In this document: positions 1-24,275 of the stretch, in pieces
How the letters are laid out: each line of letters starts with the position of its first letter
How positions within the stretch are numbered: the stretch's first letter is position 1
DNA from: Bremia lactucae
Taxonomy: Eukaryota; Oomycota; Peronosporomycetes; Peronosporales; Peronosporaceae
NCBI RefSeq assembly: GCF_004359215.1
Contig: NW_027152029.1
Coordinates: forward strand, 1,325,349 to 1,349,623
Direction of reading: 5' to 3'
Length of the DNA stretch: 24,275 nucleotides
Notes under the pieces: generated by a model
Told to the model about the DNA's origin: nothing
Database searches by the model: none
The model's input: only the letters and a program-made list of their open reading frames with translations
Made by a program: the position numbers and the translations under genes

Positions 1-1
1 T

Positions 2-688
2 GATCTCATGGCAGTACGCACTAAGCGTACTGAAAATGACAAAACAAATGAGTTAGCAGAAGAGTTTCTGCTAACTCGAGAATCAATTATCCGTTTCGTT
101 CAGGATTCCATTGCTAACGCAGTGGACCGACAGAAACGGAATGCGGACAAACATGGAAGAGCAAATGTTCATTCATTTAATATTAATGATCTAGTGCTAC
201 TCTCTACGGTAAACTTACCTAAGCGATTAGTCACTAATGTGGGTAGCAGTAAACTACTACCCAAGTTCATTGGGCCTTTCCGTGTACTGCATCGAAGAGG
301 CAATGCGTACACAATAGAATTGCCACGTAGGATGCGAACGCATCCTACGTTTTACGTTGGTCGGCTCCGCCCGTACCATCAGTACGCGGCTTCTTCCGAG
401 GACGGATGTGACCACCCTTTTCAAGAATCCCCAAAAGATTCTTGTGATCGCGAACCAGGTTCTCATGTTGAACCTGAAGTTTCTCATGCCGGTTCCGAAG
501 ATCCTCGAAACTACGATGAGCTGACGACAGCTCATCGCGAACAGCATGATAGTTCCGCTCGTACTCCAACAAGGAGTACGCACTCTTCGAACGGTCTTCC
601 AACCGCTCGATATGGTGAGCCTGCACCGTCTGCTCCAACGAAGACGCTTGCCGCGCTCGTGGCCAAGTCCCTCCTCCAAAATATGTAG
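2..688 (+). CDS. Integrase C-terminal region of Ty3/gypsy pol, partial
   Basis: The frame is open from the window edge, so the true start is outside; the first Met is at 8. About 225 residues are visible. The first half is the tail of a retroviral-type integrase: a basic helix (DRQKRNADKHGR), then the conserved C-terminal beta-barrel (ND-VLLST, LPKFIGPFRVLHRRGNAYTI, ELP, HPTFYVGRLRPY), which binds DNA and leads into a chromodomain in chromoviruses. The second half (from about residue 125) is polar and low in complexity. The frame stops at TAG 686-688, before the chromodomain, which lies in a different frame; a frameshift between about 660 and 735 is the likely cause. The integrase DDE core is not in the window. 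Confidence 0.85.
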   Translation, partial: DLMAVRTKRTENDKTNELAEEFLLTRESIIRFVQDSIANAVDRQKRNADKHGRANVHSFNINDLVLLSTVNLPKRLVTNVGSSKLLPKFIGPFRVLHRRGNAYTIELPRRMRTHPTFYVGRLRPYHQYAASSEDGCDHPFQESPKDSCDREPGSHVEPEVSHAGSEDPRNYDELTTAHREQHDSSARTPTRSTHSSNGLPTARYGEPAPSAPTKTLAALVAKSLLQNM

Positions 689-714
689 GAAGTGATCGAT
701 TTTGTCAATCTTAG

Positions 715-1005
715 ACTCTAGATCCGACACACGGTTCGGATCTATTTTTTCCTCCTCCACCACAACCATTGGTGGATTACCACGGTGGTCAACGTTTCCT
801 TGTGGAACGTATCCAGAACCACCGTGATGTGAAGGGGCAGCGAACGAGTTATCTTGTTTGCTGGCGCGGTTATCCACCTTCACATGACAGCTGGGAGCCT
901 CGTTCCCAGCTGGTTGCTGACGCTGAGGGCCTCGTCCATCAGTATGACGAGACCCATCCGATAGTTCAAAAGGTCCATCGGAAAACACGCGACCCTAGCG
1001 CTTGA
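715..1005 (+). CDS. Chromodomain tail of the family A polyprotein (frameshifted)
   Basis: Open from just after an in-frame TAG (712-714) to TGA at 1003-1005. From about 765 the translation is a chromodomain: FLVERIQNHR, then TSYLVCWRGYPPSHDSWEPR and an acidic helix ending LVHQYDE. The aromatic-cage type residues (F/Y, W, W) and the WEP motif are present. In chromoviruses this domain directs integration to methylated-histone chromatin. It should be the C-terminus of the integrase, which ends at 688 in another frame, so the polyprotein is broken here or the join is indel-damaged. There is no Met of its own, so it is not an independent gene. Confidence 0.8.
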   Translation, partial: TLDPTHGSDLFFPPPPQPLVDYHGGQRFLVERIQNHRDVKGQRTSYLVCWRGYPPSHDSWEPRSQLVADAEGLVHQYDETHPIVQKVHRKTRDPSA

Positions 1006-1069
1006 AAATCGATTGCAAAACGCCAATCAAATCCCGCATCTCAATAGAGATGCGAGCCCTCCCTCAGGG

Positions 1070-2064
1070 CTAAGAAAGGGAATAGACATCCCCTTTTACT
1101 CTCTTCGTGTTGTCAACACAACACGCACAGGGATCACCCCACGTGAGGCATGAAAGCCCAGCCTCACGTGACAACTGATGCAATTTATACCTTGCACCAG
1201 TTGGAGTTCGTTTCTCAAACTTAACGCGAATCGCGTTAAGTCTTTGAAGCCAAGCTTCGCGTCCAATGTCTTTGACATTGCGAATGAACGCACTCCAAGC
1301 TTGCATAAGCGAGACTTTATCTCGCTTATTGTTGCCACTATACCATCGATGCTTTAGAAAACATCGAGATAGAAATCTTCCTCAGCGCGAAAGTTCTTCG
1401 CGCTGGGATCAAGGCCATGTAGCTTTGTCGCAATAAATAAGGGATATTTATTGTGAGGAGTCGTCTCTCCAGACAAGATATTGATTAGCCGTTCTGGCAA
1501 AAGCCACGGCTTCTTTTCAGGGGAGAGATGAGAGATTTTATTGTATCAACTCTCCTGAAAGGTACCCACTGAAGCAGAGGTACCACAAGAACTTTTATTA
1601 CGATCGCTTACGCCATCGTCATTACCTTGCACAGAAACAGGTGCAGGTGACCGTACGGGAGACGGAACGGGCGATGAGGGATCATCCTCATCGTAGGAAC
1701 CAAATAGACTATAAACTTGTCTATCAGAATGAGCCCTCTCATTCGAAGGCTCATAGTCAGCCGCCTGACGTCTATCAGGCGACTGTTCTATTCTCCCCGA
1801 GTCGGCCATTTCGTCCGACTCGCATTCGTAGTCGACCTCCAAAGAGGAGTCGCGTTCACGTGGTGAATCACCGTGTGCACCCGCAACATCTAGTTTTGCG
1901 CGAGAAGAAAGTACTACAGCAGACGGAACGTCTGCCGCAAGAGACTTTAGTGCGTCATTCGCGGCTGCATGAACCGCAGCCGAAGGCTCCGCACTACCAG
2001 CACCCCGCATGGATTTATTCTTCATGCGATGGAATTTAAAATGATGGTTCTGACCAATCAACAT
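1070..2064 (-). pseudogene. Long antisense ORF between chromodomain and 3' LTR, interrupted
   Basis: On the minus strand a reading frame runs from an ATG at 2064 to a TGA at 1546-1548, stays open beyond it in the same frame to about 1364, then continues after one frame change to TAG at 1070. Without the breaks it would be about 330 residues. The N-terminal 170 residues are acidic and Ser/Pro-rich. The C-terminal part looks like a folded protein (KPWLLPERLINILSG, GLDPSAKNFRAEEDFYLDVF, then AWSAFIRNVKDIGREAWLQR). I do not recognise the family. Antisense extra ORFs at this position are known in some plant Ty3/gypsy lineages; a link here is only an analogy. The stop lies next to a long inverted repeat, and the frame change lies within a hairpin. 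Confidence 0.5.
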
Positions 2065-2131
2065 ATTTTGTTAAATTAAGTGGTCACATAGTGACCACTC
2101 CATGCAATGGCAGTCAAAGTGATTGTCGTTT

Positions 2132-2144
2132 AAGGGAGGGGTGA
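2132..2144 (+). promoter_or_regulatory. Polypurine tract of family A element
   Basis: AAGGGAGGGG followed by TGA sits directly before the LTR start TGTAACGGGG. A purine run touching the 3' LTR is the usual plus-strand primer site in LTR retroelements. It fixes the orientation of this LTR as +, matching the integrase and chromodomain upstream. Confidence 0.7.
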
Positions 2145-2716
2145 TGTAACGGGGTGTATCGCTACATGAAATTAACACTTAAAGGTTGTCAATTAATATA
2201 TTATCTAAAAGGTAGATAATATTTGGAGAATATTACTTTATATAGTAATATTTAGAATTCTTATCCACAAATAGGTATAGACCATTAAACCTATTTATTC
2301 CGCAGACTAATCAGCTGTAAACGTAAACAAAGAGAGAGAGACAGATGAGATTTCAATTGCATGTTTAGTATGCCTTCCTAAGGCTTGCGCATTGATTTGT
2401 AAGAGATAGAAGCCTTTCAAAGGGATTTACTCTTCGGCACAAGTTGCCACTTGGTTCTACGAACCCCTATTGCTCCCTGAGTTGTTAAACCCATTAGTTC
2501 TATAGAACTAAGAGACTCTCCGAGTCTAAAAGTCTTCCTCTGACTTAGGAGCGAGGTAGCCCCGCTACCTGGTAGCACTCGCAGTCAATCTGCTGCCAGA
2601 TTTATATCCACCATAATATATGGGATTTAAGTAATTAACTATTTTAGAATAGGATAAAAAGGTATATTACCCATAAGGTAAATGCACCACCACAACGGTT
2701 CTCCAACCCCATTACA
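2145..2716 (+). repeat. 3' LTR of family A element (572 bp)
   Basis: Begins TGTAACGGGG and ends CCCCATTACA, so it has the TG...CA ends and a near-perfect 10-bp terminal inverted repeat. The reverse complement shares long stretches with 21704-22094 and with 23930-24275 (for example the block around the 10-bp hairpin at 2198-2222 and the block at 2269-2310), which shows that these are three diverged LTR copies. It is hairpin-rich: stems at 2198-2222, 2229-2252 and 2269-2296, and an 18-bp perfect palindrome at 2494-2511. Confidence 0.8.
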
Positions 2717-3009
2717 TCTAAAATGTGCAAGGCACACCCAAATAGATACGTCTTTCATTTCTTTACGCCAGTTTCTTACCATAAATAAAGCACATTGTAA
2801 GTGGCCAACCTACCGGTTTGCTACGTGATAGCGTTTCTTGAAGGTGTCTGGTTGATGCGAAATAGGAAAAAAGCGTTTTTGCATTGCTCAATTATAAGCA
2901 AGCCATCAAAATTAAAGAAATTTGTGTAAAACACGGTACTACTGACTTCGCGCAGCCTAATAAATTAATCATAGCCCTGCGGACGGCTCAATTAGAGAGA
3001 GTGGCGAGC
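2717..3009. other. Spacer between the LTR and the chromatin gene
   Basis: No gene seen. The dense hairpins stop at the LTR end. This stretch must hold the promoter of the gene that follows, now only about 290 bp from a retroelement LTR. A pyrimidine-rich patch near 2748-2762 resembles an oomycete initiator only weakly, so I do not call it. Confidence 0.5.
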
Positions 3010-6000
3010 ATGTATCATGGTGCCGCTCGCGATCGCGGTGAAAAGGTGATATGCATTGCCCTCTTTTGCCTTTTTTTCGGACCTCTTACAAGCTTTCACG
3101 TCGGATCTCTTTCGTTCTGAATTGCATTTCACAGAAGCGTCAGCGCCTTACGCCCCCACCCAACGAACTTTGGATGGAAGCGGTCATGAACAAGATAAAA
3201 AAAACGGATGGGTGCAGTCTTGATCCAGCCGCAGCGGTCGATGAAGTGGCCGCGTCGTCAGCTGCGGCTTGGCAGGAAAGAGCGATGTGTGGCTACTCCC
3301 AAATGTCGATGCCTCTGGGACCGAAGTACTACGCCTCTACTTCAAGCTATAATGTTAGACCTGCAGAATGTTCTTTATCGTTCACGGAGGGGCCATCAGA
3401 CAGCTCAAATGCTTATCAAAATCGGAAAAGTTTTGCAAATTTTTCAGATAAGATGATAGATGGAGTGCATAGGAGCCAAGACAGACATATTAATGAATTT
3501 ACTGGATATCAAGCAACAGTAATGCCTGGTTCCAGGGGTAGCCAGAAAGATGCGGTAGCAATGTCTTCTGGTTTGCAAAGGATGAAGAGAAAAGGATTGA
3601 TATTATATCAGGGTGATGCGGCTGACGAAGCTGCAGCATACCAAAAGAGGCTAATACACGAAAAGTTTCCCATTGAGGGTCGAATTGTTGACAGCTCAAG
3701 TGAAAGGCAGCTATATCAAGGCGATAGGTCAGAAACGTCTACTTTGAGTGAGATGGGTACGACATACAAGCGAGACAGAAAGCTGCCTTCTAGACTGGAA
3801 GACATGTTAAGAGAGCAGGTAAATTTGGACGAGTCTATTCTCTTGGATGCGATTGCTGTTGCCATGGAGGATCTCACTCCCGAAAAAGAAGCTAACTTAG
3901 TGGCCAGGGGACGATGCCACTTATGTGGATTAAGCAAAACTCGCTTACTGCCTGTAGTGAACTTCTGTCCACATGCTGATGAAAACCATTCGCTTTGTAG
4001 AGAGCACTTGCGTAGCGTTTATCGAGTGCGAATGGAAGCTTTGTTTGTTGGTCGAAACGGATCTGCGCCCAATCGACGCCTCTTCCGTTGCTTGATGTGT
4101 ACGCGAGGTTGCCCGTGCTCCGGGTGCACAGCGGAGAAAGCGCAGGATGTACAGAACTATAGACGGTATCTCTTCGACACGTTGCGATGCAATGGACATG
4201 GCTTGTTCAATTCAGCCATGAGCGATCAAGCAACAGATGCTGCTTTTGGTGCAACTTCTACGAGTGCAATGGAAACGAGCATAGTATCAACTTCTGAAAG
4301 TCGATTAACTTACGGAATTGCTCCGACAATCAATGGTCGCCAGTACGGACAGCATTCACCCACATCATCTCCGGGGGATCGCCGTCTTACCTATCAAAAT
4401 GGAACATTCAGTCTCAGCGCTGAGTTGGAAAACATGCAAGATGGACGCAGGCACGTGCCAATTCAGCAATTCGGGTATGAGAAAAATTTAGCGAATAATT
4501 TTAAGCGCCACGAGGCATTTTCTGCCACTATGCAGGCACAGCCAAAGTCTCCACGTCAGCGTCCTCCTCTCCCAAAGCGTGCAGCCAAGGATACCTCTAG
4601 TAGTATGCTCGTTGTGATGGCAGATAGCGCTCATGTCAGTGGCTCTTCTCGATTGGTGCCACCTCAAGTTCAACAAAGCTGTGCAAATTCTCCTTCAGCC
4701 GCAACTGTTTTAAATTGTGCCGAGTCAGAGAAATCTTTGGTCCAGCTGTTAAATTCGTTAAATCAAGGCGGAAATTCGGTGAACTCGACTGAACGGAATG
4801 TTTTTAACGAAACGAGTAAGGATAGTAGCTACCGTTTGGACAACTCGCACTTCATTGCAAACGAAATTGCAGTGACGAGCGAAAGCAGTGGAATCACACT
4901 TAGTTCTAACAATGCGAAAACCGATACAATATACTCTGGTCATGGCATTGCTGGCCGGCTTCGCCGATACCAAGATCATTCGTCCCCGAACTTAAAGCAT
5001 TTAGGTGACGGCTTTCATCATGATGTATTCAATGTTAACACGCAATCTGTCGATGAGGCTCTGGCAAGCACGCGAACGACTAGTAATAACGATGTCAAAG
5101 ACAGTCTGTCTTCTTGCAATATAAAATTTACGGCACGAGACGATGGGAACGTTGAGCAGCGTGACAAAAGTGCTATTAAAAGAAAAGAAACTGAGCTAAA
5201 AGCGAGATCAATGCCAAGCTTGAAGCTGAAAGGCCATGAGAAAGGCAGCTCGCATACAGTCGGGAAAAAGGAAACTCAGTCCTTGCCAAAGTCATTGTCA
5301 CCACCAAGTCATCGTGAACCAAGACGTCAACGCAAACATCTCTTGCCAGGCGAGATTGCACCACCAGCGAAGCGAAGAACGCCAAAATCTGGCCCTGCCA
5401 TTAAGAGGGGTAGAGGAAGACCGCCTTCACGTGCTAAGCACGGGCACAAAGATGACCGGAAGTCAAAGCAAAAGCCTCGTGTGGAACAGGATGAGAAACA
5501 AGACGATTACGAGAGTGGCTCGGAAAGTGAGCTGGATGCAAACTTGGACTTTTGTGAGGTTTGTCAGGGTGCCGGCAATCTGGTCTGTTGCGATAAATGC
5601 CCACGCTCCTACCATTTACAATGCCTACACATGACGGAAAGTGATTTGCCCGAGGGCGATTGGCAGTGCAATGAGTGCAAAAAGCCGTCACGGTTTGACG
5701 CCTACTCTGCCGCTGTGGCCTCTGAGAGAAATTTGCTCGACAAATGTTTAAAAGTTGTTGCGTGTTTGAAGTCTCATCCATTTTCAAAGCCATTTCTATC
5801 GCCTGTAGAAAATGTACCCCTGTACACGCGGGTAGTGAAACAGCCAATGGATTTGTCAAAGATTGAGACTAAGCTGAAATTAGGTGCCTATGTCAGTGAC
5901 AGTAACCGAGTGGCATCTGAATTGGATATCACCCACTTTGCTAATGACGTTCGGTTGATGTGGTCGAACTGTAAGCTATTTAATGACGACGGCTCTGGCA

Positions 6001-14283: not shown

Positions 14284-14366
14284 AGGATAGGGTGGAATTT
14301 GAACCCACGGTATTTAAATGCTCCAGTTTTCAAGACTGACACCTTAAACCACTCGATCACCTATCC
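14284..14366 (-). tRNA. tRNA-Ser(UGA), probably of mitochondrial origin
   Basis: Complete cloverleaf: acceptor stem GGATAGG/CCTATCC (7 bp, perfect), anticodon stem TCAGT/ACTGG with loop CTTGAAA (anticodon TGA), an extended variable arm as in type II serine tRNAs, and T-arm GTGGG-TTCAAAT-TCCAC. No intron. Its AT-rich neighbours and the adjoining nad11 fragment suggest transfer from the mitochondrion, so it may be inactive in the nucleus. It lies immediately next to the broken end of a retroelement. Confidence 0.85.
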
Positions 14367-14371
14367 ACCTC

Positions 14372-16620
14372 GGCCTAGCGGCTTACCATCCGTATAAACC
14401 ACAAATGGTTCGGTGCCCAGTAGGTGCACTCGAAACTTGACAAGAGCATACTTAATTGAAAGTAGCTCTTTGTCATGCACGGGGTGATTCAGTTCCGCAG
14501 CTTTAAAAAGCCGAAACTGATAACAGATGACGCGGTCAACGCCGTCGTCATCCTTCCGCGTTAGCGCGCTGCCGATTGCAAAACTACTTGAATCACAGAC
14601 GACGCCAAACGGCTTATCCGCGTCTGGCAATGCCAAGACCGGTGGCACTACAAGAGATTGCTTCACTGATGTGAACGCATCATCTTGTTCTTTTAACCAA
14701 ACCCATTCTGCGTCCTTTTTAAGGAGGTCAGATAATGGTTTAGTTTGCTCAGCAAAATTCGTGCTATATTTACGCAAGTAATTAGCGAGCCCTACGAATT
14801 GGCGCCAATCCTTCACATGCCGTGGAATTGGCCATTCCTTTACTGATTTTACCTTTGCTCGTACACCATGTGTACCTACGATGCAACCCAGCATAGGTAT
14901 CTCAGGGACCCCTATGACGCACTTTTGCCAGTTGACGTACAATTGGACGTCCTTCAAAGTCTGCAACACAGCGTCTAAATGACGCTTGTGCGACTCTGTT
15001 GCGCTTAGCCCGTCCTCGGCCCTAGTATGCACGAATACATCGTCAAAGTAATGGGGCACGTAGGCACGGTGCTGACGCATCATGTGAGCCACGACCCGGT
15101 TGAATGTCGCTGGTGCGTTTTATAAACCTTGGGGCATCACAAGCCACTCCCTAAGCATACCGCTTGGTATGCTTACAGCTGTGTTGGCTAGATCGGACTC
15201 TCGCATGAGTACCTGATAATAGCCATCCTTCAAATCCAACGCGGAAAAGATAGTTGACTATCCCATGGAGTTCAACAAGACATCTTTCCGCGGGATTGGC
15301 GTTTGTGCCGGTATGGTCGCCGTGTTAGCTTATTGTAAGCATGGATAACGCGACATCAACCTATGGCTTTACGCACACAAAACGTCGGGCTGCAGTGAGG
15401 TGACTTTGCTCTCACGCACATGTCCCGCCTTGGCTCGCTTGTCAAAGAACTCATCAATATAATCGACTTGTTCTTTCGACAACGGCCATTGCCTGGTCAC
15501 ACAATACTTGGTGCAGGTCCGAGGTCTATCTCGTGGCCGATGCCCTTATCTGCTGGTAGGCGGCTCGGCTCTTCTTCTGGCAACACATCGCGATGTTCTA
15601 CAGAAACTCAAAGAACGAACTGTCTCTCGAGGCATCCCAGCCATGAGCAGCGAACCTTTCTATTTGTCCGTTTCTAGGACGCTAATGCCATTGTGGACGA
15701 CAAGCAACAGTTCGCCAAGTTCTCTTCTGCAACTAGTGTGACTATTTCGTGGCTCTTTCTTTCCTATAATTCGGCAAGGAACAGAGATCACGACATCTCC
15801 AGGAGATTTACTATCTCCTCGGAAGATTTAAAGACTTGCCGAAGCACCTCAACTGAGGATGCCTCAGCAATTTCGTCTTTGACGGCCTCGAACACCTCGT
15901 TCGAAGGCCCATCCTCTTTATTAGGAACTGATCCAAAGGTCACTTGTTTAGACGTGCCTTTGATCGTCCTAATCTGTCGGGTCCTCGTTCTTTGAGTCAC
16001 CACGACCTTTGTCTGGGAAGCGGGTGCCGTTGCTCTCCTGGCTAACGCACCCCTTCCACCGCACCAGGCTCTAGGCACTGTGCCGGTTCATGCGACGCTT
16101 GACTTCCTGTCAGCTCGCTGTCTACTGCCACAGGCTCTCGGCTCTGTGCAGAAATATAGGACACATGACTACTTGTCATTGCCCTTTTCACTACCTCAGT
16201 CTCCACGATCTGGGTAGAAATTGGTGACGTTTTACATGCCGTCAACGCACCCTCAATTGTGTTCGACACGACATCAGTTGCATATACCTCTCGCAAGAGC
16301 ACATCCTTTCCGGTGTCCTGCGTAGAGTTTGAAACTGTGCGTGTACGACAGTCTATCCATGGTTGGTGTTTTGCCAATCATGGCATGCCTAGGATAAGGT
16401 TATACGAACTCACCATACCTAGCACTGTGAACTTCTCTTTACAAGAGAAGTCACTAAATCTAAAGGCGAGTTCTACCTGAACTCCCTCAGAATTAACGAG
16501 CGCGCCGTTCGCTAAACGAACGGTCGCCTCTTCTCGCTTGCCATCCTGGCAAAGCGACTCAAACATCGCCGGTCTCTTTCTTAGAGCCACGAGTTTCACA
16601 AAATTTTGTGATGCACCCTA
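14372..16620 (-). mobile_element. Ty3/gypsy family B, broken copy 1 (protease to RNase H)
   Basis: On the minus strand: retropepsin part about 16600-16330 (FTVLGMVSSYNLILGMPWL); linker 16330-15800; RT from about 15600 to 14830 with the catalytic YFDD in HYFDDVFVH (about 15040); thumb and connection (GCIVGTHGVRA, WRQFVGLANYLRKYS, KPLSDLLKKDAEW); RNase H (VVCDSSSFAIGSAL, DKELLSIKYAL, VVYTD). It stops abruptly after VVYTD near 14385, next to the tRNA-Ser. Many stops and frameshifts lie in the RT N-terminal part (15100-15800), so it is not functional. No chromodomain or LTR is seen. It is far less hairpinned than family A. Confidence 0.85.
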
Positions 16621-19246
16621 AACCACTAGGAAGGTCATCACCTGGTCATAGCGTACTGGCGTAAACACTGTTATTTATAGCGAACTCCACAAAGAGCAAT
16701 TGCTTGCTCCACTCTTTGGGAGTTGCTATAGTGCGCAGGACATCCTCCACGACCCGATTGGCACGTTCTGTTTGGCCATCGGTCTGGGGGATGATTTGCG
16801 GTCGACATGTGGAGCTCATGTTGCCAAAAACCAGACGTAAAACGTGGATCCCGGTTCGGTACTATGGACTCGGGCATCCCGTAGAGTCGGTAAACATGAT
16901 CCAGGAACAAGAGAGCTGCCTCCTTGCCTGTGATCGATGTCTTACATGGTGCTAAATGCACCATTTTGCTCAGTCTGTCTACAAAGACGACTAGCCCCGT
17001 CCGACCCTTATGATCGGGCGACATGCCAAACATGAAGTCCAGGCTTACTGACTATCAACAATCCGTTGGAATCGGTAGCGGCTTCAGTGGCGCACTGCTG
17101 GACGGTGCAGGCATAATGCCCTGACACTGTTCGCAAGAGCGAACATAGATGGCCAACCATCAATATAGTATGGCCACCAAAATTCCTCTGACACTCGAAA
17201 GAATGTCTTTTCACGGCCCAGATGCCCACTAGATGGAGCATCATCGAGCTCGTGAAGGATCATCAACTTGAGATCTGTGTCATGAGGCACATAGATTCTC
17301 AAGGGATCACAAGGTGACAGCTGATGCCATAACAGGCCATCGCTGTAGCTAAAGCGATTTAACTTAGCTTTCAGGTGCGACGGAAGGGAGACCTTTGGTC
17401 CACCGAAGTGATCCAACAGCAGGCGAAAGTGGTCGTCCTGACTGTAGCTCTCTATTATCTCCGAGGCCAATGAGCTCGTCACGTGTTATGCCTTAATGGC
17501 TGCCAACGTTGACGGCTGAAATTGTGCTTTCGCACTAGACACACTTTCCTGGTATCTAACCTCGAAGCCTGGTCTGCGCGATAATGCGTCAGCCAAGGCA
17601 TTCGACTTACCCGGCTTATATTTAACTTTGAAATTAAATCAGAGAAGAATGTGAGCCATCTTGCCATTCTAGGCGAGAGGTGCGGTGAGTTTATTGCGGT
17701 CCGCAGTGATGCGTGATCCGTATAAACCACAAATGGCTCGGTGCCCAGTAGGTGCACACGAAACTTGACAAAAGCATACTTTATTAAAAGTAGCTCTCTG
17801 TCATGCACGGGGTGATTCACTTCCGCGGCTTTTAAAAGCCGGGACTGATAAGAGATGACACGGTCAACGCCGTCGTCATCCTTCTGCATGAGCAAGCTGC
17901 CGATTGCAAATAACTTGCATCGCAGACGACGCTTAAGGGCTTATCCGCGTCTGGCATGCCAAGACCGGTGCCTCTATAAGCGATTGCTTCACTGCTGTGA
18001 TAGCATTCTCTTTATTTTCCAACCAAACTCATTATTCGTCCTTTTTAAGGAGGTCAGACAAGGGCTTAGTTTTCTCAGCATAATTCCTGCTGAATTATGC
18101 AAATAATTAGCGAGCCCAAGGAATTAGCGCAAATCCTTAACATGTCGTGGGATAGGCCATTCCTATACTAATTTACCTTGTCTGGGTCTGCTCGTACACC
18201 ATGTGTACCTACGATGCTGCCCAGACAAGGTATCTCAGGGACCCCTATGATGCACTTCTTCAAGTTGACGTACAATTGGGCATCCTTCAAAGTCTGCATC
18301 ACAGCGTCAAAATGACGCTTGTGTGACTCTATTGCGGTCAGCCAGTCCTCGGCCCTTACTATGTACGATTACATCGTCAAAGTAAAGGGGCGCGTAGACA
18401 CGGTGCTGACGCATAACGTGAGCTACCACTCGGTTGATGTCGCTAATGCGTTTTTCAAACCTTGGGGCATCACAAGCCACTACCAAAGCATACCGCTTGG
18501 GGTGCATACTGCCGTTTTGGCTACATCGGACTCTCTCATCAGTACCTGGTAGTAGCCATCCTTCAAATTCAGCGCGGAAAAGATAGTTGACTTTCCCATG
18601 GAGTTCAACAAAACATTTTTCGGCGGGATTGGCGTTTGCGCCGGTATGGTCGCCGTGCTCAGCTTATTGTAAGCATGAACCACGCGCCATTTACCTGTGG
18701 CTTTACGCACACTAAAGGTCGAGCCGCAGTGAGACGATTTGCTCTCACACACATGTCCCGCCTTGGCTCGTTTGTCGAAATACTTATCGATATCGTCGAC
18801 TTTTTCTTTCGGCAACGGCCATTGCCTGGTCACACAATACTTGGTGCCAGGCTCGAGGTCTATCTCGTGCCCGATGCCCCTATCTGCTCGTAGGCGGCTT
18901 GGCACTACTTCTGGAACACATCGCGATGTTCTACCGAAACTCAAAGAACGGACTGTCTCTCAAGGCATCCCAGCCTTGAGCAGCGAACCGTTTCTTCTGT
19001 CCGTTTTTAGGACGCTCTCGTTCATTGTGGACGACGAGCAACAGTCCACCAAGTTCTCTTCAGGAATTGGCGCGACTATTTCGTGGATCTTTCCTTCCTT
19101 TAATTCTGCAAGGAACAGATCCCACGACATCTCTGGGAGATTTACTGTCTCCTCGGCAGATTTAAAGACTTGCCGGAGCACCTCAACTGAGGATGCCTCC
19201 GCAATTTCGTCTTTGACGGCCTCGAACACCTCGTTCGAAGGCACGT
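16621..19246 (-). mobile_element. Ty3/gypsy family B, broken copy 2 (linker to integrase)
   Basis: From the N gap downward on minus: linker (EVFEAVKDEIAEASSVEVLR), RT N-terminal part (GTKYCVTRQWPLPKEKV, WRVVHAYNKLSTATIPAQTP, SALNLKDGYYQVLM), YFDD (LYFDDVIVH, about 18390), RNase H (17895-17600), the HHCC zinc region of integrase (SGHLGREKTFFRV, about 17230; the Cys pair looks lost) and the first part of the integrase core (GRTGLVVFVDRLSKMVHLAP, then LYGMPESIVPNRDPRFTSGF, where the Asp normally before RDPRF is Asn). It ends near 16660, where the protease of copy 1 begins, so the two copies are joined in tandem by a deletion or recombination. Several frameshifts and stops: dead. Confidence 0.85.
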
Positions 19247-19346: not shown

Positions 19347-19439
19347 ACCCGTTCGTTCTCTGCAAAAATTACCGCTGACCGAATATCGGTTACGTAATCG
19401 TTCTCTGTGACGAAAACGCAGATCTGCTTGATTCTCCCG

Positions 19440-20520
19440 CTATGCAGATCTCTCAAGAACCGCTTGGGTTCTAGGGTTGGTAATTGAGTTTATTTCCGAA
19501 GTTAACTTCGGAGGCGCATAAAGATCAAGAGTATAAGCGTCTACTCTTGATCTGTCATTAACCAAGACATTCAATGTCTCGGTTCCTTCCTGGGATATAT
19601 CCACAGGCTGCCGAGGGATCAATCCCTCGGGATGCTGATGTCTAGTCACTTCAGCATTAACTATTTGAGGAGATTTCTCCTCAAGTACGTGGGGCCTTAT
19701 TCCCTCAACGTCTTCCGACTGTGATTGCGCTATCACCGATGGTTCCTCTACGGTCGACTCTCTACTCGACTTAGGATCATCGTGTTGTCCATTTTGGGCA
19801 ACCGGTATACTCCTTGAATGTCGCCCACTAAGCGTACATTCATCTCTTAATCCACTCGACTTATTCGAGTGGTGGACCTTCGGCGCTGCTTGTGCATTCG
19901 CACAGCCGCCGGCAGCTGACTTTACAAGGTGATTGGTAATCACAGTGTGATCTTGCGCAGTCGTACTAACGACCGTACCACAAGTGAGGCCATCGCACTC
20001 ACTTGTAGTACATCTACACGCTTGTGGACGCTCCAAGACGTTCATCAGATGGCCATCTGATGAACAAGTGGCAGGCACCTTTACGGATCGATGCTGCCAG
20101 CTGATTCTTAGCTCATATTTTCTAAGCCAAGATAAACCTAGAATGACATTGAATTTGTCATCTAAATCCAGTACGATGAGATTATCATCGTACTATAAAT
20201 CTTGTAACGTGTAGTGAAATTTCACTACGCGTTTCATTACTTTATCGATGCGCCTCTCGCTAAGCGCACCGTCATTCTCGTTGGAAGATGTCGCGCTCAA
20301 CATATTTGAGCCTACGACCCTCTAGCGACTGGCGAGGAATAAAGTTATTCGACTCCCCATACTCCACTAGGGCTCTAAGTGACAAATTATTTGTCCCTTT
20401 TAATTTCAAGGTGATGAGGGATACCTCACCGCCAGGTGCAGAGACACATAATGATTGTGTGTCTGGAGCAACTTTAGTCAAGAGATTTGCAATTTCTCTT
20501 GAAATTGCTGGATCAGTAGG
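19440..20520 (-). pseudogene. Aspartic protease and linker of family A, damaged
   Basis: First segment (to a stop at 20272): APGGEVSLITLKLKGTNNLS then LRALVEYGESNNFIPRQSL. The retropepsin active-site triad, normally D-S/T-G before A-S/N, reads EYGES here, so the catalytic Asp is lost. The next segment, in another frame, has LIVLDLDDKFNVILGLSWL, the second half of the protease fold, followed by a 200-residue acidic linker ending at 19440 that leads toward RT. The breaks fall in hairpins, for example the perfect palindromes at 20211-20228 and 20040-20065. Confidence 0.65.
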
Positions 20521-20669
20521 GCGTTGCGCCCCTGCTGACCCCGACCGTTTTTTGGCGCTCCGCCTCGCTGTTGCGATTTCGCAGCAACGTTGGACCCGCG
20601 TCCGTTGCCCTTTTTGGCATTCGGTCCATAATTGCGTTCGGTGCCTCTCGATACTGGGCGTGGGCCACT

Positions 20670-21647
20670 AAAGTTATGAGCTTAGTGTCTTAACTTTTGA
20701 CAGCGATTGCATTTCTGCAATCGCTTATTGTTCGAAAAGCGAGGGTCTCGCTTTCGACATAAGAGCGGTCCATAGTTTCCGGACCTCCAAGTTAGTGTCG
20801 TCTTAGAGGACGATACGATGACGAACTTGCTTGAGCCTGTCTCAAGCATAAGTCCTCCTGTTCCACTACGGATATTGCTTCTTCAAGCGTATCCAGTTCC
20901 AAGCGGAACTGGTAAGTCTTTACGGGACAATCCGTATGACCTTGCATGAACACCGTAATCAACGTATGTTCATGGACTGGGTTGTTTGTGATACAACTCG
21001 CTAAAAGTCGTATATGCTGGGCACAAGCGTGAACATCACCCTTGCCTTGCTTGAGTTTCAGAAGCTCTGATCGAGCTCTAAACTCAGCTCTCGGCGGTTC
21101 AAATGTCTATCTGAGCCGGGATTTAAATTTCTCCAGCGATTCAAAGACATATGGGTAGCGCAACTTAAGAGCTAGTGCTTAAGTTTTACACGACCTGCCA
21201 AATTTGACTGAGCAAATGCGACTTGTATTTGCTCGTCGACGATGTGACGACCCCTTATGGCATCGTCCAACTCGACAAATTATCTTAAGAGGGAGTCTTC
21301 TCCGACCCCCCTATACTTGAAGAAATCAATCTTTAAGGTTTCGGGACGACGCGTGTGCATCTTCAAGGTACAGGGGCCTGTACCTGTTGTAACCTCACCA
21401 ATTCTGTCTGTTGAGAGCCTTGCGTATTAAGCAAGGCTACCTTCTCCTTCGCCTCGTCAAGTTCATGTTGTATGAATTTGGCGATGGCTAAATGGAGGGC
21501 ATCTTTATCCAAACTGGACAGCGTGGCCAATATGGCATCGTTCCCTACGGTCGAACTCATTCGTTCGACCGCACTCATTTCTATGTCACTTAGAAAGCAG
21601 TAGCTATCACGCGAAACGTGATGCGTCTTTCCATTATCATCTAACAT
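20670..21647 (-). pseudogene. Gag of family A, frameshifted
   Basis: Starts at ATG 21647 (MLDDNGKTHHVSRDSYCF), about 56 nt after the LTR. An open part of about 95 residues with a coiled-coil-like helix (HLAIAKFIQHELDEAKEKVA) ends at a stop at 21363; the rest is broken. At 20670-20711 a zinc knuckle is visible, C-x2-C-x4-H, but its last Cys is Phe and an in-frame TAA lies inside. After it comes a basic tail rich in Gly, Lys and Arg (GPNAKKGNGRGSNVAAK). Role: capsid and nucleocapsid of the retroelement; this copy cannot be functional. Confidence 0.65.
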
Positions 21648-21703
21648 GTCAATGTTAGATGATGGAACTGTGGTCCTTGGACGGACTACAAAGTGCTTCC
21701 AGG

Positions 21704-22094
21704 TGTAACGGGGCACTGCCGATTTGTACTGCTTCAGTACAAGTCCATACGCACTGCCTCAGTGCGAGTGGTGCCTCACGTCACTTCAAGTACACTAGTA
21801 CGTGTAGAGGAAGACTCTTTTCAAAACACTTGCTTTAAAGAGGGTTAAAAGGTACTGTATATAATATAATAAAGCTCTTATGTTTATTTATATTTAATAC
21901 TTACTTGAATATAAACTGATACAACACATGTAGTAAAGTCTTATCTGTCTCTCTCTTTGTGCGCGTCCAGCGCTGACTGGACCGCGGAGAAAGCATATAT
22001 AATGGACTATATCTACCAATGGATAAGCTTTCCGAATATTACTTCGTAAAGTAATATTTTCCAAATATTATCTACCTTTTAGATAATATATTAA
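21704..22094 (-). repeat. 5' LTR of the minus-strand family A copy
   Basis: On minus it ends CCCCGTTACA at 21704, directly before gag; a possible primer-binding site TGGAAGCAC starts two bases on. Its other end near 22094 is not a clean TG end and meets the inverted-repeat block, so the LTR is truncated or has received an insertion. It matches the reverse complement of 2145-2716 around 21950-22094 and matches 23930-24020 at its other end. Confidence 0.7.
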
Positions 22095-22329
22095 GGGAAC
22101 CGGTAAAGGTACACCACCCTTTTGGTATAGCCACACCCCTCCTCCCGTCTGTTTGTTTTGATTAGATAAAAACTACAGATTAAAAATGACAACATAAAAC
22201 ATTTTATTATTTCATATATCGCAAAGTTAACAATTATTCCTATTGAGTCGTCGTTAGATCCCCTTTTGAACTTTGGTGAACCATCACACCCACTAAATTA
22301 CATTAGGGAATCGCAATAGCCACACACCA

Positions 22330-22937
22330 TAACTATCTACATGAGAGTAGTGTAATGCATCAGAGACCGTATTTTGTTTAGCGATGTTAGATGTACTATT
22401 TTTAACAGGTGAGAAAAAGCCAAGAGCGCCCGTACTTGATTGTCAAGTCATAAGAGGAGCGAAAAGAAAGAGCAGCAAATCGAACTCGAGGTAGAAGTTG
22501 AGCTTTAAAAAAGCGACAAGGGTCGGAGGTGTGCTCTTGCGCATGCGTGTTAGTTAGTATTTGGCTGTCAAGCTAAGGATGAATTTAATTTACTTTACTT
22601 ATAGCAACTTTTGCGAGAGTGCATTCTTACCTTTCAATTTGGCGAATCTTAGTGGTCTTTTTACGTACACATCATGGGCGCAAGCAAGCCACAATTTTCT
22701 ATGTTTCAGGTTTGTCGGCTTTCGCTCGTAATTTCTTTGTTCAAACACATCTTGCTAATAAACAAAGAAACTGCACAATCATTGAGAAGTCTTTTTGCAG
22801 GCCTTTTGAGCTACTGAAGCTAGGAAGGACTGCATAAAGGTTTCTCAATATGAATTCTAGTTATCAACAAGTTGCTACAATTACGCTACTCTCATAAACA
22901 GAGAAATAGATAATTAAGGGCTTTGGCTGTATCGGAA
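22330..22937. other. Unassigned interior of the inverted-repeat block
   Basis: AT-rich, no convincing gene. Around 22673 there is ATGGGCGCAAGCAAGCCAC, similar to the ORF start in the element at 13389-13855, so the two elements share interior as well as ends. Nothing else is seen. Confidence 0.4.
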
Positions 22938-23168
22938 GAGACTGCTTCACTGATGTGAACGCATCTTCTTGTTCTTTTAACCAAACCCATTATGTGTCCT
23001 TTTTAAGGAGATCAGATAATGGTTTAGTTTGCTCAGCATAATTCTTGCTATACTTATGCAAGTAATTAGCGAGCCCTAGGATTTGGCGCAAATCCTTCAC
23101 ATGCCGTGGGATTGGCCATTCCTTTACTGGTTTTACCTTGTCTGGGTCTACTCGTACACCATGTGTAC
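22938..23168 (-). pseudogene. Family B RT/connection fragment (inverted half 1)
   Basis: Closely matches 14650-14870 and 17980-18215 (the RT thumb/connection coding region, for example GCGTTCACATCAGTGAAGCA on minus). It ends at ACCATGTGTACCT, where the sequence switches strand and element position. Confidence 0.8.
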
Positions 23169-23884
23169 CTGAGCAACGGCACCCGCTTCCCAGAAAAGGT
23201 CGTGGTGACTCGAAGAACGAGTATTTGACAGATCAGGACGATCAGAGGCACGTCTAAATGAGTGACCTTCGGATCAGTTCCTAGTAAAGAGGACGGGCCT
23301 TCGAACGAGGTGTTCGAGGTCGTCAAAGACGAAATTGCGGTGGCATCCTTAGTTGAGGTGCTCCGGCAAGTCTTTAAATCTGCCGAGGAGATAGTAAATC
23401 TCTTGGAGATGTCGTTGGATCTGTTTCTTGCCATAGTAAAGGAAGGAAATAGCCACGAAATAGTCACACCAGTTCCAGAAGAGAAATTGGTGGACTGTTA
23501 CTCTTCGTCCACAATGGACGAGAGTGTCCTAGAAACGGACAAAAATAAACGGTTCGCTGCTCAAGGCTGGGATGCCTTGAGAGACAGTCCGTTCTTTGAG
23601 GTTTTGTGGAAACATCGCGATGAGTTCCCAGAAGAAGTGCCGAGCCGCCTACCAGCAGAGAGGGGCATCGAGCACGAAATAGACCTCGAGTCTGGCACCA
23701 AGTATTGTGCGACCAGGCAATGGCCATTGCCGAAAGAACAAGTCGATTATATCGATGAGTTCTTGGACAAGCGAGCCAAGGCGGGACATGTGCGTGAGAG
23801 CAAATCGACTCACTGCAGCCGGACCTTTTGTGTGCGTAAAGCCATAGGTGGATGGCGCGTGGTTCATGCTTACAATAAGCTGAA
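23169..23884 (+). pseudogene. Family B linker and RT N-terminal fragment (inverted half 2)
   Basis: Open on + from about 23262: linker (GPSNEVFEVVKDEIA, LVDCYSSSTMDESVLETD), then RT N-terminal part (FEVLWKHRDEFPEEVPSRLP, GTKYCATRQWPLPKEQVDYI, WRVVHAYNKL). It is cleaner than the copies at 14372-19246, with no stop over about 200 codons. RT is cut precisely after NKL, where the inverted-repeat end begins; the frame then runs on meaninglessly to 24011. Confidence 0.85.
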
Positions 23885-23929
23885 AGGGTGTGTGGCTATA
23901 CCAAAAGGAGTGTGTGCCTATACCGGTTC

Positions 23930-24275
23930 TGTAACGGGGCACTGCGACTTGTACTGTTTCAGTACAAGTCCACTTCACACTGCTTCAGTTGTGAGTGGTG
24001 CCTTTCGTTAGGTGAGGTACACTGTACGTATAGAGGAAGACTTCTCTTAAGGCAAGTTAGCTTAAGAGTGTAAAATGAAGAACTGTATTAATATAGTTAA
24101 GTGTCTCTTAATCTATCTTTGTAAATGCTGACTTAACTATAAACTAATACTAAACATGTAAATGAATTCTTATCTATCTTATCTTGTAACTCTCTTTGAT
24201 TACTTCTACAGCTGATTAGTCTGCGGAATAAATAGACATAATGGTCTATACCTATTTATGGATAAGAATTCAGGA
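23930..24275 (-). repeat. Third family A LTR, cut by the window end
   Basis: On + it begins TGTAACGGGGCACTGCGACT, as at 21704, and runs to the window end in the block (24200-24275) that matches the reverse complement of 2255-2310. Same orientation as 21704-22094. It could be a solo LTR or belong to a further element to the right. Confidence 0.75.

Follow-up and report, generated by a model that had tools for sequence, protein, structure and literature searches.

Introduction

Genome-scale ordered RNA structure (GORS) is known from persisting RNA viruses, in which consecutive stem-loops run over coding sequence without focus on the untranslated regions and the RNA folds better than shuffled sequence. 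Viral RNAs with such structure resist probe hybridisation, and in murine norovirus the disruption of structure lowered fitness in vivo (PMC3695492). Here we describe a chain of short hairpins with these features in a Ty3/gypsy long terminal repeat (LTR) retrotransposon of the oomycete Bremia lactucae, located in a stretch of 24,275 nucleotides (contig NW_027152029.1, positions 1,325,349 to 1,349,623 of the forward strand), which is called the window throughout. The element works like GORS but is not classed as a member, because it is an integrated LTR element and not a persisting RNA virus. We give a probability of about 0.5 to the reading that the hairpins are maintained by selection along most of the length of this family and likely shield its RNA from host silencing.

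Gypsy elements account for 58.6% of the contig sequence of B. lactucae (PMC6570648). Chronos is likewise an oomycete gypsy element with a chromodomain, and the words hairpin and antisense are absent from the text of its description (PMC5348765). Hairpin RNA in an oomycete setting is represented by the small-RNA-producing inverted repeats of Phytophthora (PMC3804510), unlike which the Bremia element has perfect stems of at most 13 bp. Among the literature matches listed, covering few subscription papers, none described hairpins running through the whole genome of an LTR retrotransposon.

Excess of perfect hairpins over shuffled sequences

Positions 1-2371 (+) of the window form the 3' part of a chromodomain Ty3/gypsy element, in the order integrase end, chromodomain, a stretch of about 1.1 kb and an LTR broken off at about 2371. 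Hairpins were counted as non-overlapping perfect inverted repeats with a stem of at least 8 and a loop of 3-15, and were compared with 100 block dinucleotide shuffles. Between 12 and 2296, 21 hairpins were found (stem 8-12, loop 3-12), while shuffles of 1-2371 gave a mean of 0.52 (standard deviation 0.71, maximum 3), in agreement with an initial annotation of this DNA that had claimed at least 20 hairpins against a chance expectation of about 0.5. For stems of at least 10 the numbers were 7 and 0.04. The hairpins cross the integrase end, the chromodomain, the antisense open reading frame (ORF) and the LTR alike, as had also been stated. The block had been drawn as far as 2716, but the last hairpin ends at 2296, the LTR stops at about 2371, and 2372-3050 has no hairpin under the same thresholds.

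A second hairpin block in the same window, overlooked by the initial annotation, is located at 19347-22100 on the minus strand and belongs to a sister element (23 hairpins vs 0.57 in dinucleotide shuffles). The pol region of the sister element (14301-19240) showed a mild rise, 4 hairpins vs 0.88 with a shuffle maximum of also 4, and so did 22101-24275 (4 vs 0.46, shuffle maximum 2). The five host or intergenic stretches between 2372 and 14300 contained 0, 0, 0, 1 and 2 hairpins, bearing out the remark that such density was not seen in host genes.

Codon-preserving shuffles were run on six ORF pieces. The hairpin count stood above all shuffles in four of them, the integrase ORF 2-685 (6 vs 0.38), the antisense piece L016:7345-8502(-) (10 vs 0.52), gag 21363-21716(-) (4 vs 0.20) and the ORF 19440-20078(-) (6 vs 0.15). 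In the other two, both among the three antisense pieces, the count equalled the shuffle maximum (3 vs 0.18 and 2 vs 0.12). Since codon-preserving shuffles give far fewer hairpins, the encoded protein does not account for them. Chance, composition or low complexity as the source of the hairpins has practically no probability left, being ruled out by the dinucleotide and codon shuffles and by the conservation of hairpins across subfamilies. A Dicer-processed inverted repeat has a stem of about 20 bp or more; the longest perfect stem among 84 hairpin places was 13 bp.

Hairpins and folding energy in other copies

Shuffling and inspection of other copies had been proposed as checks by the initial annotation; shuffled sequences gave far lower counts, and the excess persisted in the copies. 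Each of 20 copies, the window copy and 19 others that are 88.5-92.0% identical to it over the longest match, carried 11-24 hairpins, or 4.6-10.1 per kb. These copies are the top scorers among at least 40; of 8396 first-look candidates, 40 were scored. When 23 copies were pooled, 44 hairpin places were obtained in 2.37 kb with a median spacing of 44.5 nt, a place being defined by pairs from perfect stems of at least 7 present in at least 3 of the 23. Six full-length copies were inspected, five of which contain N gaps: hairpins extend over the LTR, gag and the 3' parts, and in the gap-free copy L021 the pol-side bins hold fewer hairpins, yet some. Gene order along one copy was read from ORFs only. 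The genome carries 541 exact matches to one degenerate integrase motif, and one young subfamily is represented by dozens of places with equal score over 129 residues. The locus L037 is 91.7% identical to the window over 1-1063 and then diverges.

The folding excess, defined as the energy beyond that of shuffled sequence in 350-nt fragments, was 34.5-50.5% for the 3' ends of five copies of the window's subfamily (subfamily A), 39.3 and 41.1% for gag, 41.2% for subfamily C, the value of the first 1.06 kb of L037. It was 21.7 and 23.6% for two copies of subfamily B and 22.3% for 2.3 kb of pol. Across the whole of L021 the mean was 35.0% (23 fragments, range 6-63), so that folding beyond shuffled controls, the mark of GORS, is found genome-wide in this copy. 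Two copia loci gave 0.6% each, and two host stretches gave -3.0 and 6.6%. The published excess is 7.5-10.7% for hepatitis C virus, about 15% for severe acute respiratory syndrome coronavirus 2 (SARS-CoV-2) and 23.4% for the highest coronavirus (PMC7642675). Folding in the window's subfamily thus appears stronger than in these viruses, and that of subfamily B reaches 21.7-23.6%, with the virus values taken from the publication, which used overlapping fragments and a different shuffling. A second difference is that pairings of GORS viruses are mostly non-homologous between relatives, whereas many pairs are kept at homologous places here.

Outside the family, 27 stretches (66 kb, one place fetched twice) contained 43 hairpins, or 0.65 per kb. 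A host-wide mutational habit was rejected on this value, as against 4.6-10.1 per kb in family copies. The four copia loci had 4 hairpins in 13.3 kb of known bases, a raw count. Some non-family stretches folded better than expected (window 15612-16600, 23.2%; L019:7425-9967, 20.3%; L033:1-1491, 15.9%) or had a high hairpin density (3.4 per kb in L030:1-1491 and 3.3 per kb in L031:1-897), and these are perhaps unrecognised relatives. The stretch 15612-16600, which has a minus-strand ORF of 111 aa and no match to the fetched family members, is perhaps a further subfamily. By eye L028:1-2179 is another gypsy element, with 4 hairpins in 2.2 kb and a folding excess of 7.9%.

The hairpin pattern was assessed within the B. 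lactucae genome alone. A close-range DNA search for relatives in viral and genome contig collections gave no matches, and protein relatives were named for Hyaloperonospora, Peronospora, Phytophthora and Globisporangium (120 of 228 listed).

Covariation of stem pairs between subfamilies

Subfamily B consists of seven copies (two of them 99% alike), whose identity to the window in two main blocks is 71-77%. The comparison of 16 window-type copies together with L037 against the seven B copies covered the first 1.1 kb and gave 137 stem pairs in A and 74 in B, of which 46 are common. Among the A-defined pairs with both bases changed in B, 15 of 23 were still Watson-Crick pairs (p 0.017) and 3 of the other 8 were G.U; among the B-defined pairs double-changed in A, 15 of 17 still pair (p 6e-5), 11 pairs entering both counts. 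In the control, random pairs of like spacing, 955 of 2402 (40%) pair. A stricter filter on local identity left five unique double-changed pairs each way, with four of the five pairing in each. Because double-changed stem pairs mostly still pair, unlike the control, selection for pairing is favoured, and very probably it is the pairing itself, beyond the sequence, that selection has kept. Some hairpins are not common to both subfamilies: the hairpin at 838 is mostly broken in the six subfamily B copies shown, and the one at 985-1005 is perfect in subfamily B only.

Variation within stems

Because genomic copies appear mostly dead, variants found in a single copy (singletons) were taken mainly as decay after insertion, and variants common to several copies as change in the active lineages. 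Singletons were as frequent in stems as elsewhere, at 0.488 vs 0.468 per column in A (p 0.61) and 0.383 vs 0.390 in gag (p 0.86). Variants present in at least three copies were depleted in stems, with 45 of 764 stem columns (0.059) against 137 of 1428 others (0.096) in A (Fisher p 0.0026) and 23 of 661 (0.035) against 90 of 1232 (0.073) in gag (Fisher p 0.0007). The stem frequency is 0.56 times that elsewhere (pooled Fisher p 6e-6). Loops showed no depletion of shared variants relative to linkers in A (0.109 vs 0.093 per column) or gag (0.076 vs 0.073). Columns of weakly supported hairpins were left out of this test (A, 178 columns with 0.073 variants per column; gag, 233 with 0.069). Stems were defined by perfect pairing in at least three copies (two for gag and B), which may mask shared mismatches, a bias judged small.

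Interpretation and alternative explanations

Two explanations had been offered by the initial annotation, a mutational process that makes palindromes and selection for a globally structured RNA; the results favour the second, with no preference for one strand, and disfavour the first. We infer that selection acts on a single-stranded form, RNA or complementary DNA (cDNA), with evasion of silencing as the benefit. With stems of 8-12 bp, mostly with loops of 3-8 nt, at intervals of about 45-50 nt, the RNA would have few single-stranded parts open to pairing with small interfering RNA or antisense RNA, and no single stem would be long enough as a substrate of Dicer. In P. infestans, small RNAs of both senses cover two Gypsy elements throughout (PMC3522703). 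Shielding was chosen as the mechanism because of these small RNAs together with the resistance of structured viral RNAs to hybridisation; as the function of the hairpins it is put forward tentatively, with somewhat less than even odds. The hairpin excess itself was observed in the LTR, gag, the integrase end and the antisense gene, and to a lesser degree in pol.

Several observations weigh against this interpretation. The covariation comes from a comparison of two subfamilies along about 1.1 kb of sequence. In subfamily B the deficit of shared variants is unclear (18 of 404 stem columns, 0.045, vs 95 of 1680 others, 0.057), and singletons in its seven copies are also lower in stems (0.257 vs 0.315). 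Double changes within families showed no clear excess, numbering 26 vs 21.4 expected in A, 24 vs 13.6 in gag and 2 vs 6.7 in B. Sense and antisense strands fold equally, none of nine family sequences differing by more than 1.3 standard errors. Structure in sense RNA should tolerate G.U more than A.C, but the pair variants in at least two copies were 71 G.U and 73 A.C (G.U share, confidence interval 0.41-0.58), and in counts per cell G.U fell short of A.C both within B (26 to 53) and where B pairs were followed in A (49 to 57). Furthermore, small-RNA output per Mb in Phytophthora is highest for inverted and tandem repeats (PMC3804510), which is contrary to shielding if short hairpins are processed likewise.

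By set, the counts of G.U and A.C per pair were 44 vs 41 in A, 19 vs 18 in gag and 8 vs 14 in B, and between subfamilies 9 vs 12. The counts per cell were mixed, G.U being ahead for window-defined pairs (123 to 64), for A pairs followed in B (134 to 71) and in the set of A with C (38 to 20); they are swayed by inheritance, one inherited change being counted many times. An early count over all hairpins (A: 297 G.U and 372 A.C cells) included chance hairpins and was superseded by the count of supported pairs. A strand test on A vs T in loops gave no clear signal (p 0.06). Since the pattern is neutral as to strand, the target of selection may be both RNA strands, cDNA, or sense RNA with stems too short to tolerate G.U. 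A more far-reaching proposal is that the whole genome from LTR to LTR is a conserved strand-symmetric hairpin chain, folded more strongly than the RNA virus genomes compared, and a silencing armour within the coding sequence with which sense RNA and the transcript of the overlapping antisense gene coexist without long double-stranded RNA; it appears doubtful.

Among other functions, the hairpins could be dispersed packaging or Gag-binding sites or an aid to reverse transcription. They are spread over the genomic RNA, and dispersed packaging signals have reportedly been proposed for several RNA viruses; however, the loops are as variable as the linkers, and 17 four-base loops had no common motif by eye, so this role is rather unlikely. 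The strand-neutral folding and per-pair counts would also agree with selection on the DNA form, either single-stranded cDNA or the integrated palindromes themselves, and LTR elements are said often to target palindromes. Stems of 8-13 bp extrude poorly from duplex DNA, and we know of no reason why cDNA would need hairpins; selection on DNA is accordingly considered improbable.

Template switching during reverse transcription or replication might make and repair hairpins without selection, in keeping with perfect and strand-neutral stems, and such a mechanism has been published for RNA genes (PMC8794818), where the hairpins likewise show perfect stems and matching changes. Unlike those hairpins, the Bremia stems are depleted of shared variants and show no whole-arm events, in which several bases change at once by copying from the other arm: among 31 matched cells within families, one copy alone has two in one hairpin. 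Concerted copying predicts that stem sites vary as much as others but in matched pairs, yet of the pair variants in at least three copies, matched ones made up 2 of 44 in A and 1 of 23 in gag. Nearly all matched changes between subfamilies, 17 of 19, were transitions on both sides, compared with 51% in controls (p 0.0008) and about half expected if single changes were copied (unpaired sites, 4299 of 8515 transitions). Because single template-switch events would copy transversions as readily, mutational copying is disfavoured. The like singleton rates show no maintenance of hairpins in integrated copies, the pattern is missing from host genes, and the folding of copia loci is that of shuffled sequence. 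Template switching as the sole cause is therefore quite improbable.

If selection for pairing with shielding is correct, genome-wide RNA folding is not peculiar to RNA viruses but is also a transposon's way to multiply under RNA silencing. The family, which has hundreds of copies and several subfamilies, would then be a natural setting for testing what genome-scale structure is for, a matter of dispute, and in repeat annotation a hairpin-rich coding sequence need not be taken as a mutational scar.

Organization of the element

The element is a Ty3/gypsy LTR retrotransposon, with an integrase carrying a Tf2-1-like SH3 domain, a chromodomain and LTRs at both ends: 2145-2371 recurs 8.1-9.0 kb upstream in six copies. 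The LTR match in L016 extends about 217 bp beyond that of the window copy. The chromodomain of the window copy was read by eye, PF00385 being listed for relatives such as P0019. In sister elements, RVT_1 and RNase H were above cut-off at 14361-15092 (-), and RVT_1 was below cut-off at 18480-18944 (-). Pieces of the sequence next to the broken LTR (2371-2591, 2381-2468, 2473-2568 and 2611-2708) recur elsewhere in the genome with 74-90% identity, and another repeat therefore adjoins the LTR.

Table 1. Hairpins and coding features of the element and its sister in the window
Feature	Position	Strand	Remarks
Hairpin, stem 8, loop 5	12..32		double changes in subfamily B
Hairpin, stem 12, loop 4	50..77		double changes in subfamily B
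Hairpin, stem 11, loop 4	325..350		imperfect in subfamily B
Hairpin, stem 8, loop 7	422..444		absent from six subfamily B copies shown
Hairpin, stem 10, loop 4	514..537		kept in B with double change
Hairpin, stem 8, loop 5	560..580		absent from six subfamily B copies shown
Hairpin, stem 9 (11 in other copies), loop 8	719..744 (717-746)		four matched double changes in B
Hairpin, stem 9, loop 7	888..912		kept in B with double change
Hairpin, stem 8, loop 4	1035..1054		
Hairpin, stem 8, loop 4	1106..1125		
Hairpin, stem 10, loop 11	1140..1170		
Hairpin, stem 10, loop 3	1219..1241		
Hairpin, stem 10, loop 5	1305..1329		
Hairpin, stem 9, loop 5	1383..1405		
Hairpin, stem 9, loop 5	1431..1453		
Hairpin, stem 8, loop 6	1672..1693		
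Hairpin, stem 8, loop 9	1798..1822		
Hairpin, stem 9, loop 3	2079..2099		
LTR hairpin, stem 10, loop 5	2198..2222		identical stem in sister element, 22065-22089
LTR hairpin, stem 9, loop 6	2229..2252		counterpart in sister element, 22035-22058
LTR hairpin, stem 8, loop 12	2269..2296		
gag hairpin, stem 11, loop 4	20040..20065		26 bases equal to own reverse strand at 100% in genome places listed
Integrase C-terminal ORF, SH3_Tf2-1 domain at residues 63-126	2..688	+	PF24626, E 5.5e-15; open at window edge
Chromodomain-coding stretch, other sense frame	690..1002	+	lowest sense-frame stop rate, 4.3 per 1000 codons
3' LTR, shortened in window copy	2144..2371	+	2145-2371 recurs upstream in other copies
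Open antisense frame across 23 copies, one frame step at about 1300	345..2143	-	start at about 2064 by eye
Open piece of antisense gene in window copy, 172 aa	1546..2064	-	from ORF list
Sister element, LTR-gag end	19347..22100	-	23 hairpins with stem of at least 8; best 40 of 6955 genome candidates scored

The antisense gene

Across the 23 copies, the antisense strand of 345-2143 has one frame per segment with a stop rate of 4.7-7.4 per 1000 codons, compared with 3.9-4.7 for the integrase frame. Because this antisense gene overlaps the integrase-chromodomain end, 345-1002 is open on both strands. The N-terminal part of the predicted protein (window 345-2143, minus strand; L016:7345-8502, minus strand) is acidic, a coiled coil and a basic tail were seen by eye at its C-terminal end, and no Pfam family was above cut-off. 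Relatives of 559 and 574 aa were found. The relatives include P0001 (88%), P0004 (55%) and P0007 (54%), and Hyaloperonospora arabidopsidis (54%) and Peronospora matthiolae (44%) are among the source species. The Hyaloperonospora relative P0007 has the database name 'Core-binding (CB) domain-containing protein', and a Pfam search with it gave no match.

The arrangement recalls retroviral antisense genes such as HBZ. Among plants, the Ty3/gypsy elements Retand, Grande and RIRE2 likewise have antisense ORFs near the 3' end, between pol and the 3' LTR, in a paper whose text lacks the word hairpin (PMC11963269). Unlike these, the Bremia gene overlaps the integrase-chromodomain end and its product has no Pfam match above cut-off. 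The antisense gene might be the reason for both strands to exist as RNA; against this, the gag hairpins, which lie outside it, are equally strand-neutral. Part of gag is likewise covered on its antisense strand, at 20201-20801 (+), by a frame low in stops (10.8 and 14.1 per 1000 codons), which may be incidental.

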